DNA from: Anaerolineae bacterium
GTDB lineage: Bacteria > Chloroflexota > Anaerolineae > Anaerolineales > Villigracilaceae
Reading direction: 5' to 3'
Length of the DNA stretch: 34,616 nucleotides
Assembly: GCA_017303655.1 (NCBI GenBank)
Contig: JAFLCE010000045.1
Location: 1-34,616, forward strand
Shown piece after piece: positions 16,822 to 19,866 of the stretch. Position numbers and translations under genes: made by a program. The notes under the pieces were generated by a model. The model had not been told where the DNA came from and ran no database searches. It worked only from the letters and a program-made list of their open reading frames with translations. Positions within the stretch are counted from its first letter, which is position 1; every line of letters begins with the position of its first letter.

Positions 16822-17547
16822 TTGAGGCATTCTATTGGTTATCTTTTATTAGAAGGCGGCGCAGAGTTTGGCGGACGAATGTCTGAGCCCGATTTGCTCG
16901 CCATTAAATTAGCAGGTGGGGTCGATGCCCCTATTTGCATTATTCCCACTGCCGCCGCGCCGGATAAGAATCACAACCGGGCGGGCAGGAATGGTGTGAA
17001 TTGGTTCGAAAGCCTTGGAGCAAAACAGGTTTTTACTGTTGATGTGATTAACTCAAAATCAGCCAATGACTCTGCACTTGCGGATCAAATTCGTAGCTCA
17101 AAACTAATTTACATGCTCGGCGGTTTCACTCACTATCTGGGCGAAACGCTCAAAGAGAGTCTATGCTGGTCAGCGGCACTAGAGGCGTATCAGAATGGTG
17201 CTGTCATCGCCGGGAGCAGCGCCGGGGCGATGGTGATGTGTGAATATTACTTCGACCCAAATAAGCAGCGAGTGGAACGCGGATTGAATTTGGTCCCCAA
17301 TGCCTGTGTCTTGCCGCATCACAATACGTTTGGAAAAGGCTGGGCAGGTGAGTTAAGGAAAATGCTGCCAGAGGTGCTCTTGATCGGCATTGACGAGCGT
17401 ACGGGCATGCTGTCAACGGACTCTTTCACGGATTCGCGGACGATAATGGACGTAGAATGGGAAGTCCACGGCGGCGGTGGGGTGACGCTTTACCGAAGCG
17501 AATCCACTGTCAGCTATGGAAGAGGCGCAAAGTTTAGTCTGAAATGA
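16822..17547 (+). CDS. Peptidase S51 / cyanophycinase-like protein
   Basis: A 241-residue protein of the S51 family (dipeptidase E and cyanophycinase). The nucleophile elbow G-S-S-A-G-A-M (about residue 131-137) holds the catalytic Ser. I-P-T-A-A-A, M-L-G-G-F-T-H and the L-P-H-H-N-T-F-G region are typical. Family members cleave beta-aspartyl or aspartyl dipeptides, or cyanophycin; the substrate here cannot be told. The start is TTG at 16822, six bases after the comEC stop, with no clear ribosome binding site, so expression probably depends on comEC translation. No signal peptide, so cytoplasmic. Confidence 0.85.
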   Translation: MRHSIGYLLLEGGAEFGGRMSEPDLLAIKLAGGVDAPICIIPTAAAPDKNHNRAGRNGVNWFESLGAKQVFTVDVINSKSANDSALADQIRSSKLIYMLGGFTHYLGETLKESLCWSAALEAYQNGAVIAGSSAGAMVMCEYYFDPNKQRVERGLNLVPNACVLPHHNTFGKGWAGELRKMLPEVLLIGIDERTGMLSTDSFTDSRTIMDVEWEVHGGGGVTLYRSESTVSYGRGAKFSLK

Positions 17548-17615: not shown

Positions 17616-18164
17616 ATGAGAAAATGGCTAATTTTGCTTCCGTTTTTTTTGACTGCATGCGCAAGCACGGGGTCGACTCCAGCCCAGGAGGTTGTATTGC
17701 CCATCTTCTCTCTACAAGATCACGGTCTTGCCCCCGAGTTGACAAATGAAACCTGGCTGAATGTGGATGCTCCCTTACGCCTTGCCGACCTGCGCGGCAA
17801 GGTGGTTGCCATAGACATGTGGACCTTTGGCTGAATTAACTGCCAACATGTGATTCCTTCGTTGAAGGAATGGGACGAGAAATATCGCGAGCAGGGTTTG
17901 GTGATCATTGGTAATCATTACCCCGAGTTTGGGTATGAGGCAGATCTAAATAATCTGAAAGCCAAGGTTCTGGAATACGGCATCGAATACGCTGTAGCCC
18001 AAGACAACGATGGTGCAACCTGGCAGGCATACGACAACATTTATTGGCCCACTTTATATTTGATCGATAAACAAGGGCATATTCGCTACGTCCATATCGG
18101 CGAAGGCAGGTATGAAGAAACCGAAGCTGCTATTCAAATCTTGCTGGCTGAAACATATCCATAA
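17616..18164 (+). CDS. Predicted selenocysteine-containing TlpA/DipZ-like thioredoxin lipoprotein
   Basis: Read with the TGA at 17832-17834 as selenocysteine, this is one 182-residue protein. The N-terminus is a lipoprotein signal with lipobox L-T-A-C (Cys15). A thioredoxin-like domain of the TlpA/DipZ C-terminal type follows: L-R-G-K-V-V-A-I-D-M-W-T-F-G-U73-I-N-C76, then P-S-L-K-E-W, G-L-V-I-I-G and the cis-Pro site W-P-T-L-Y-L-I-D. Known relatives have W-T-Y-x-C-I-N-C, so U replaces precisely the nucleophilic first Cys. Reading frame and homology continue unbroken through the TGA, and a SECIS-like hairpin follows. The ATG has only a weak ribosome binding site. It is 20 bases upstream of msrP. 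Alternatives are a recent nonsense mutation or a sequencing error. It would act as an extracytoplasmic thiol reductant or peroxidase-type redoxin. Confidence 0.86.
17835..17873 (+). promoter_or_regulatory. SECIS-like hairpin after the in-frame TGA
   Basis: Just after the TGA, ATTCCTTC (17853-17860) and GAAGGAAT (17864-17871) form a perfect 8-bp stem with a GTT loop. The loop lies 27-29 nt after the TGA and starts with G. Known bacterial SECIS elements place a small loop containing a G about 16-37 nt downstream of the UGA, inside the coding sequence; SelB binds it. The match is by eye only. Confidence 0.62.
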
Positions 18165-18184: not shown

Positions 18185-19138
18185 ATGAGTCATCGTTTTA
18201 AGTCCGTCCCTGTCCGTTCATCCGAAATTACGCCGAAAGAGACTTATCTTTCACGGCGTGACTTTATCAAAGCCGCTGGTGTGATCGCCGGAAGTGCAGC
18301 CTTGTTGGCTTGCGCGCCCGATGCTGCTGAATCCACACCCGAGGTGGCAGGTGTGACACGCCCTGCTTTCTCTGATGAGCTTGGAAACCCCGCCAACACC
18401 TTTGAAGAGATCACCAGTTATAACAATTATTACGAGTTCAGCACCAACAAAGAAGCTGTAAAACCGCTCTCTGAAAGTTTCAACGCCAACCCATGGACAG
18501 TAGAAGTGACTGGCATGGTGGCGAAGCCCAAGACCTTTGGCATCGAAGACTTGCTTGCGATGTTCCCGCAGGAAGAACGCATCTATCGCCTGCGTTGTGT
18601 TGAAGCCTGGAGCATGGTCATTCCGTGGAACGGCTTTTCACTGGCAAGTTTGTTGAAGGCTGTCGAGCCTACTTCTGATGCGCAATACGTCCGCTTTGAA
18701 ACGGTCTATCGCCCTGAAGAAATGAAAGGACAAGGTAGTCCCTTCTACCCGTGGCCCTATCAAGAAGGTTTGCGCATTGATGAAGCCATGAACGACCTGA
18801 CCTTGCTCGCCACCGGTTTGTATGGCGAGATGATGCCGAATCAAAATGGTGCGCCTATTCGTCTGGTGGTGCCGTGGAAGTACGGTTTCAAATCCATCAA
18901 GTCTATCGTCAAGATCGAGCTGACCGATCAACGTCCCAACACGTTATGGAACACTGTGGCAACCAATGAATATGGCTTCTATGCCAACGTGAATCCCAAC
19001 GTAGATCATCCGCGCTGGTCGCAGGCATCAGAACGACGCATCGGTGAACTCACCCGCCGCGAAACCCTCATGTTCAACGGCTACGGCGAACAAGTGGCTG
19101 ACCTGTACGCCGATATGGATCTGAGTTTGCAGTACTAG
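18185..19138 (+). CDS. msrP: Protein-methionine-sulfoxide reductase, molybdopterin catalytic subunit
   Basis: MsrP (YedY) reduces methionine sulfoxide in proteins outside the cytoplasm with a molybdopterin cofactor, taking electrons from MsrQ. The 317-residue protein has a twin-arginine signal S-R-R-D-F-I-K (residues 23-29) and the Mo-coordinating Cys138 in R-L-R-C-V-E-A-W. The signal ends in L-L-A-C (Cys43), so the protein could be a Tat-exported lipoprotein. The start has a strong ribosome binding site (GAGGAG). It lies 20 bases after the predicted selenoprotein gene and before msrQ, so the three are likely one operon. Confidence 0.93.
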   Translation: MSHRFKSVPVRSSEITPKETYLSRRDFIKAAGVIAGSAALLACAPDAAESTPEVAGVTRPAFSDELGNPANTFEEITSYNNYYEFSTNKEAVKPLSESFNANPWTVEVTGMVAKPKTFGIEDLLAMFPQEERIYRLRCVEAWSMVIPWNGFSLASLLKAVEPTSDAQYVRFETVYRPEEMKGQGSPFYPWPYQEGLRIDEAMNDLTLLATGLYGEMMPNQNGAPIRLVVPWKYGFKSIKSIVKIELTDQRPNTLWNTVATNEYGFYANVNPNVDHPRWSQASERRIGELTRRETLMFNGYGEQVADLYADMDLSLQY

Positions 19139-19185: not shown

Positions 19186-19866
19186 ATGAAAATCTTTAAT
19201 CGTTATACCCCGTTACAAATTGTCATTCATCTTTATGCCTGGTCTGCATTGCTTTGGATCATTTTTGAATTACTGACTGATTCTTTTTCCATCAATCCCA
19301 TTCAAGAACTTGAACAGCGCACCGGTCGGCATGCCATTACTTTGCTTGTCCTGTCTTTGCTTTGCACACCGTTGAATGCCATCATCAAATTCCCCGAACT
19401 GCTCAAACGCCGCCGCACTCTGGGGCTCTATGCCCTGATGTACGCCACCATTCATGTCCTTATTTTTATCAATCTCGACTATGGTCTCGCCTGGAGTCTG
19501 ATCGTCCGCACCGTATTTGAAAAGCCCTACATCATCGTCGGTGCCCTTGCTTTCTTATTGATGATCCCGCTTGGCATCACTTCCTTTGATGTTTGGAAAA
19601 TACGCCTCGGCAAAAACTGGAAGCGCCTACATCAGGTTGTTTACCTGATCGCGCCGCTTGCCATCCTCCATTACATCTGGAGCAAAAAAGGCGATATCCT
19701 CTCCCTCTCGGGTGACATCCTCCGTCCCGCCATTTATGGACTCATCCTAGCAATCTTCCTCATCTTACGCATCCCTGCGGTGAAGAAGTACATCGCATCC
19801 CTTCCAACGGGGAAGCTGACTCTGCCCTTCAAAAAGAATCCACAACCCAAAGTGGATGCGCCTTAA
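19186..19866 (+). CDS. msrQ: Heme-binding membrane subunit of the MsrPQ system
   Basis: MsrQ (YedZ) is a b-type heme membrane protein of the ferric reductase-like family that passes electrons from the quinone pool or flavin donors to MsrP. The 226-residue protein has about six hydrophobic segments. Conserved features include R-H-A-I-T-L-L-V-L-S-L-L-C-T-P, A-L-M-Y-A-T-I-H-V, and W-K-R-L-H-Q-V-V-Y-L with A-I-L-H-Y, which hold the heme-ligand histidines. The ATG lacks a clear ribosome binding site and is preceded by a palindrome. Adjacent msrP supports the assignment. Confidence 0.92.
   Translation: MKIFNRYTPLQIVIHLYAWSALLWIIFELLTDSFSINPIQELEQRTGRHAITLLVLSLLCTPLNAIIKFPELLKRRRTLGLYALMYATIHVLIFINLDYGLAWSLIVRTVFEKPYIIVGALAFLLMIPLGITSFDVWKIRLGKNWKRLHQVVYLIAPLAILHYIWSKKGDILSLSGDILRPAIYGLILAIFLILRIPAVKKYIASLPTGKLTLPFKKNPQPKVDAP

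Follow-up and report, generated by a model that had tools for sequence, protein, structure and literature searches.

Does the TGA that interrupts a thioredoxin-like gene in the genome of an Anaerolineae bacterium end translation, or is it read as selenocysteine (Sec)? The gene lies at positions 17616–18164 (+ strand) of the window, the whole 34,616-nucleotide stretch of DNA analysed here, and its 183 codons, counting the stop, include only one internal stop, at codon 73. On the comparisons of sequence and predicted structure presented below, decoding of this UGA as Sec is strongly supported, and the gene very probably makes a selenoprotein.

The gene and its predicted product

17616..18164, + strand: predicted DipZ-type thioredoxin-like selenolipoprotein gene, 182 aa with TGA as Sec (from sequence, Pfam, PDB and fold matches)
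17649..17660, + strand: predicted lipobox L-T-A-C with candidate lipidated Cys15 (read by eye from the sequence)
17832..17834, + strand: in-frame TGA, codon 73, probable Sec at the nucleophilic Cys of CxxC (from sequence and homologue column)
17841..17843, + strand: TGC, resolving Cys76 of U-I-N-C, invariant in 69 aligned sequences
18048..18050, + strand: codon of Pro145 in YWP, the predicted cis-Pro expected of the thioredoxin fold (from sequence and alignment)

An earlier note on this DNA had described a thioredoxin-like frame running open across the TGA. The single internal stop agrees with that description, as do the flanking residues, DMWTFG-U-INCQHVIPSLKEW. The motifs that it had named as lipobox and cis-Pro are also there, LTAC (Cys15) in the first half of the protein and YWP (Pro145) in the second. 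By eye, the N-terminus is hydrophobic and is followed by LTAC, a candidate lipobox. The note had further expected gene callers to split the locus into two false genes. When open reading frames (ORFs) are listed down to a length of 100 aa, a single false fragment, 17850–18164, appears at the locus.

Read through the TGA, the protein scores above the Pfam cut-offs for AhpC-TSA, Thioredoxin_8 and Redoxin, and all of its Pfam matches are thioredoxin-like. In an alignment of 69 of the 111 listed sequences, the window protein included, which also served for the structure model, residues Trp69, Thr70, Asn75 and Cys76 and column 73 (with Sec entered as Cys) are invariant, and Pro145 is nearly so. An Rfam search of the window returned no match, and ARAGORN found no tRNA within it.

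The active-site codon in homologues

Homologous loci were drawn from a sample of the window's family (152 genomes), a sample of its class (396 genomes), 32 loci from named genomes and further fetched regions. The resulting 163 loci were reduced to 140 distinct loci by merging identical local DNA; one locus that starts downstream of the active-site column (L079) stands outside the counts. At this column, TGA occurs in 92 loci, TGC in 27 and TGT in 21, and no other codon was found. The TGA falls on the first active-site Cys, as the earlier note had proposed, with TGA homologues in related genomes and Cys (TGC or TGT) at the same position in the other 48 loci. Two marks of bacterial selenoprotein genes are thus present, a UGA with conserved flanks and Cys at the UGA column in homologues.

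Scattered stops in close relatives, which the earlier note had named as evidence against its reading, were not the pattern observed. A close homologue (at least 232 bits) was found in 51 of the 152 family genomes; in the search table, 31 of these homologues carry one TGA, 19 are stop-free and one has a TAA elsewhere in the frame, off the column. From a sample of 400 genomes across the phylum, 20 more regions with TGA in their table row were retrieved; the TGA lies at the column in 19, and the remaining region (L184) has TGC there. TAA as a changed Sec codon was considered for genomes G105, G511 and G327 and rejected, the column codons being TGT, TGT and TGC, respectively. One homologue, L179, carries an extra in-frame TGA besides that of the column and looks damaged.

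A SECIS-like hairpin downstream of the UGA

17853..17871, + strand: SECIS-like hairpin AUUCCUUC-GUU-GAAGGAAU, 8 of 8 pairs (from folding and homologue covariation)

A bacterial SECIS element is described in PMC1088965 as a hairpin just 3′ of the UGA with a G in a small apical loop. Such a hairpin is found in the window: 18 bases separate the TGA from its 8 bp stem, and 26 separate the TGA from the G of its GUU loop (position 17861). The stem was compared across 68 of 84 distinct Sec regions and 45 of 48 distinct Cys regions, omitting L164–L179 and L181–L183 as long, distant or damaged; L179 was also omitted from the folding test. The first loop position is G in 61 of the 68 Sec rows; the other seven lack G there.

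Across the 65 distinct Sec rows, 92.1% of cells are paired, a value reached in none of 500 shuffles. Compensatory swaps occur at pair 24–38 (UA to CG in eight rows) and at pair 27–35 (CG to UA in 17), and RNAalifold predicts a consensus helix. Two of the five pairing measures applied to the Sec rows are not clearly above shuffles, namely two-sided pair changes (50/500) and further pair types (262/500). In the 45 Cys rows, 58.9% of cells are paired; these rows, too, exceed their own shuffles on some measures, and RNAalifold found no helix in this set.

Shuffling of synonymous codons gave a stem-specific test. Of the 8 pairs, 7.40 are retained in the Sec set (shuffles 4.61, at most 5.09) and 4.71 in the Cys set (shuffles 4.05, at most 4.44); in each case, none of 500 shuffles was as high. 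The window's own 8/8 stem was reached in 35 of 5000 synonymous shuffles. Pair 27–35 joins a synonymous change of a Pro codon to a Lys/Arg codon (AAG or AGG) eight bases on, and among regions with Pro and Lys/Arg at these places it is standard in 67 of 76 Sec regions versus 20 of 40 Cys regions. The folding energy of the window stretch is unexceptional (z = −0.17 versus synonymous shuffles), and dinucleotide shuffles folded as well in 42 of 200 cases for 51 bases and in 16 of 200 for 69 bases. As this energy is ordinary, it is the stem-specific test and the covariation that carry the case for the hairpin.

The stem is not uniform across the family. Two TGA loci of the same family (L068 and L069) lack the usual stem, and in five Sec-type loci (L091, L101, L153, L157 and L162) it is paired differently, as seen on folding L091 and L157.

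The selenocysteine machinery

Decoding of UGA as Sec calls for selA, selB, selC and selD, as the earlier note had pointed out, and all four are represented in the source genome (4.6 Mb, 172 contigs, 93.55% complete, 5.82% contaminated). A tRNA-Sec with anticodon UCA scores 68.5 bits (gathering threshold 47), and SelA (443 bits), SelB (343 bits) and SelD (361 bits) all exceed their family cut-offs. The selD gene itself carries one in-frame TGA, within CAGUAS. SelD is listed among selenoprotein families in PMC1794560, and the genome therefore holds at least one further Sec gene of the classical kind. All four components lie off the window's contig. Mis-binning of the Sec genes was considered and is unlikely, because in each of the single-contig genomes G011 and G437 the TGA gene shares its molecule with SelA.

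Of the 396 class-sample genomes, 334 have a SelA match. Taking as TGA-form genomes those among the matches listed, it is present in 58 of 62 of these versus 276 of the 334 others (one-sided p = 0.018, kinship ignored), a comparison in which TGA forms may be present among the others and a small number of the SelA matches are fragmentary. As SelA is so common in the class, this is a weak test. The four TGA genomes of the class sample (matches listed) in which SelA was not found are at most 86% complete. In the family sample, which overlaps the class sample, SelA is present in 29 of 31 TGA genomes and was not found in G109 (92% complete) or G076 (60% complete).

A weak DsbD_TM match, for which the search table gives one in-frame TGA, lies beside another (G000:C1:227461–227679); it could be a second Sec gene or noise.

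Alternative readings of the UGA codon

The TGA could be a nonsense mutation or a sequencing error, leaving either a pseudogene or a miscalled TGC or TGT. The damaged look of L179, with its second in-frame TGA, counts in favour of this. Chance nonsense mutation, which the earlier note had judged unlikely, is excluded because 92 of 140 homologous loci share the TGA and the remaining 48 have TGC or TGT; TAA, TAG and all other codons are absent from the column. Furthermore, the frame in the window is open on both sides of the TGA and the downstream stem is conserved, so that mutation or error is scarcely credible and was rejected. A reading of UGA as Cys, Trp or another residue, by a different tRNA or through a genome-wide change of code, was also rejected as highly improbable: the neighbouring gene at 16822–17547 terminates with TGA, TGA replaces Cys solely at the active-site column of the homologues, with a SECIS-like hairpin behind it, and the genome has the Sec apparatus.

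It is also very unlikely that the UGA mainly terminates translation as a selenium-dependent switch, with a short lipopeptide made when selenium is lacking and the full protein when it is present. Termination is a possibility inherent to any Sec UGA, but a product of the first 72 residues would break off at the active site, which the Pfam matches span. Decoding as Sec remains the strongly preferred reading. It is proposed that the UGA at codon 73 would be decoded by the host's SelA, SelB, SelD and tRNA-Sec, with insertion directed by the hairpin that starts 18 bases downstream.

Repeated exchange of Sec and Cys

With the Sec/Cys column masked, a 117-domain tree requires 18 switches between Sec and Cys, at least 11 of which are forced by well-supported branches. 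This tree left out L140, L155, L156, L162 and loci above L164; its bootstrap had yet to converge completely, and the placement of some long branches is uncertain. In one pair of close sisters, L040 (Cys, genome G019) and L049 (Sec, genome G011), SelA is present in both genomes; therefore, Sec was exchanged there without loss of SelA.

Three Cys genes, L040, L046 and L149 (TGT or TGC), retain all eight pairs of the stem. The loop G is kept in L040 and L149, and the loop of L046 is CTT. Judging from these sequences, L040 and L149 are likely to be former Sec genes that underwent a recent Sec-to-Cys change and retain a fossil SECIS. Repeated exchange in a class rich in SelA, together with stem-bearing Cys genes, allows one protein to be used to ask why Sec is retained or given up, and for it L040 and L049 offer a natural Cys/Sec pair.

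Relation to known thioredoxin-like proteins

Among proteins of solved structure, the closest sequence matches are DipZ (5.8e-37), NHLRC2 (3.4e-25) and SOQ1 (1.7e-23). The top PDB fold matches of the structure model (mean pLDDT 92.2) follow the same order. As DipZ is closest in both sequence and fold, and W-T-x-x-[CU]-x-N-C and YWP are both present, the protein was assigned to a DipZ/NHLRC2 type. It shares 42% identity with the DipZ C-terminal domain (2hyx, 5cyy) in structural alignment. In the sequence match, the C-I-N-C, YWP and GEG motifs of DipZ align with the window protein, and DipZ has Cys at the column of the TGA. DipZ is a thioredoxin-like domain fused to a CcdA-type membrane part. In contrast, the window protein, with 182 aa and thioredoxin-like Pfam matches only, has no such fused domain and is a predicted free-standing lipoprotein. 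Similarly, it resembles the thioredoxin-like domains of NHLRC2 (6gc1) and SOQ1 (7djj, 7djk), the next best in sequence and fold, which are eukaryotic fusions with NHL repeats, whereas the window protein has no NHL repeat.

Seven NCBIfam models match the window protein at E 0.001, with no selenoprotein model among them, and the subfamily cut-offs are not reached for ResA (56.3 of 170 bits), DsbE (22.8 of 123.15) or TlpA (24.8 of 230). The model NF041057 (Rcas_1661 family thioredoxin-like (seleno)lipoprotein) is likewise of UxxC type, and the window protein does not match it at E 0.001.

The U-x-N-C thioredoxin-like domain also occurs in longer proteins, from the class (L166–L178) and, for many of L184–L203, from the phylum; L164 and L165 are short proteins. 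The long homologues often have a different hairpin, of the CCGCAGUUGCGG type. Pfam finds NHL repeats in L168, the sole long homologue scanned. One long homologue, L197 (genome G545), has two in-frame TGA codons in the search table, of which that at the active-site column was confirmed. The long U-x-N-C homologues may form a phylum-wide, NHLRC2-like selenoprotein group.

Linkage to msrPQ and proposed function

18185..19138, + strand: msrP, catalytic subunit of the molybdenum methionine sulfoxide reductase, 20 bases past the selenoprotein gene
19186..19866, + strand: msrQ, haem-binding membrane subunit (from Pfam/NCBIfam and locus comparison)

The gene directly precedes msrP-msrQ throughout part of the Anaerolineae, namely in the family of the window and in some others, in Sec and Cys forms alike. 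Among loci with at least 800 bases of downstream sequence, MsrP follows on the same strand at 32 of 76 Sec and 25 of 43 Cys loci, and MsrQ at 30 of 76 and 22 of 43. At these 57 loci, MsrP starts 333–605 bases past the column codon in all but L150, where the MsrP match is weak (23% identity). MsrP is partial at L035, and L072 has MsrQ without MsrP.

In the proposed model, the product is a lipoprotein held at the membrane's outer face; it would have a thioredoxin fold of the DipZ type with U-I-N-C as its active site, and would work as an extracytoplasmic selenol/thiol reductase. Lipid anchoring, outward orientation and reductase chemistry are inferred. CcdA/DsbD-type membrane proteins are the usual electron donors of such lipoproteins; one is encoded elsewhere in the genome, and a CcdA-like membrane reductase may recharge the selenoprotein. 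Because the gene directly precedes msrP-msrQ, its most likely job would be guarding or repairing exported proteins against oxidation, in parallel to MsrPQ. A role tied to MsrPQ in this way is about an even bet.

Nearly as probable, at a little under even chances, is that Sec is inserted and the protein is unrelated to MsrPQ, the genes being operon-mates only and the protein serving thiol redox in general or the maturation of cytochrome c, like TlpA and ResA. MsrP takes electrons from MsrQ and requires no thiol partner, which counts for this alternative, and within flanks of limited length no MsrP was seen at 44 of 76 Sec loci or at 18 of 43 Cys loci. Against it stand the 57 loci, of Sec and Cys versions, at which MsrP follows, and the 52 at which MsrQ does.

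For the MsrPQ-linked role, pneumococcal Etrx2 may be a functional parallel: in PMC3914529, it is a surface thioredoxin lipoprotein tied to extracellular methionine sulfoxide repair with MsrAB2. Etrx2 is among the fold matches of the window model, and both would be thioredoxin-fold lipoproteins paired with a methionine sulfoxide reductase; the partner of Etrx2 is a thiol-type MsrAB, whereas the window neighbour is the molybdenum enzyme MsrP. Etrx2 has Cys, not Sec, and is recharged by CcdA.

Precedent and significance

Thioredoxin-like selenoproteins of the UxxC type are already well known, as seen in the tables of PMC1088965, PMC9312934 and PMC13188914, which catalogue thiol-disulfide isomerase-like (cd02966), Redoxin family (PF08534) and Prx-like thiol:disulfide oxidoreductase (PF00578) members; MGB1650493.1 and HEU0032618.1 are accessions listed for the cd02966 and PF08534 kinds. 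By their table descriptions, these share the fold superfamily of the window protein and have Sec first in the CxxC. The main text of PMC13188914 contains none of the words Chloroflex, DipZ, Anaerolin, NHL and MsrP. In the literature searched, largely open-access journal papers, neither a DipZ-type Sec clade nor a link to MsrPQ was found. No paper there joined selenoprotein, selenocysteine, NHL repeat and thioredoxin, a paper on GH126 glycosidases was the single match for selenocysteine with either DipZ or NHLRC2, and eight papers matched MsrP with selenocysteine.

Tentatively, and with slightly less than an even chance of being right as a whole, Chloroflexota may hold a large, uncatalogued set of DipZ/NHLRC2-type U-x-N-C selenoproteins, comprising short lipoproteins and long fusions, at least one with NHL repeats, that were gained or lost many times. 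Its MsrPQ-linked branch would join selenium and molybdenum chemistry in one extracytoplasmic methionine-oxidation defence operon, and the linkage suggests a selenium-dependent partner in extracytoplasmic oxidation repair. The class Anaerolineae consists mostly of uncultivated bacteria, and in many of its genomes, as this locus illustrates, a protein's active site drops out of routine annotation where UGA is Sec.

Other neighbouring genes

Neighbouring ORFs were grouped by single linkage as plain ORFs, antisense included, and these clusters served only to pick examples, among them a UvrD-like helicase, a LysM protein, a histidine kinase and a response regulator. Upstream, at 16822–17547, lies a Peptidase S51/cyanophycinase-like gene with a TGA stop, a relative of which occurs upstream in only two other loci in the flanks examined (L027 and L047). 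Downstream of msrQ in L123 (5409–6245) is a DsbA-like protein with Pfam Thioredoxin_4/DSBA matches, a relative of NF041057 at 123 bits, below the cut-off of 190; its ORF cluster has a member downstream in 12 loci.
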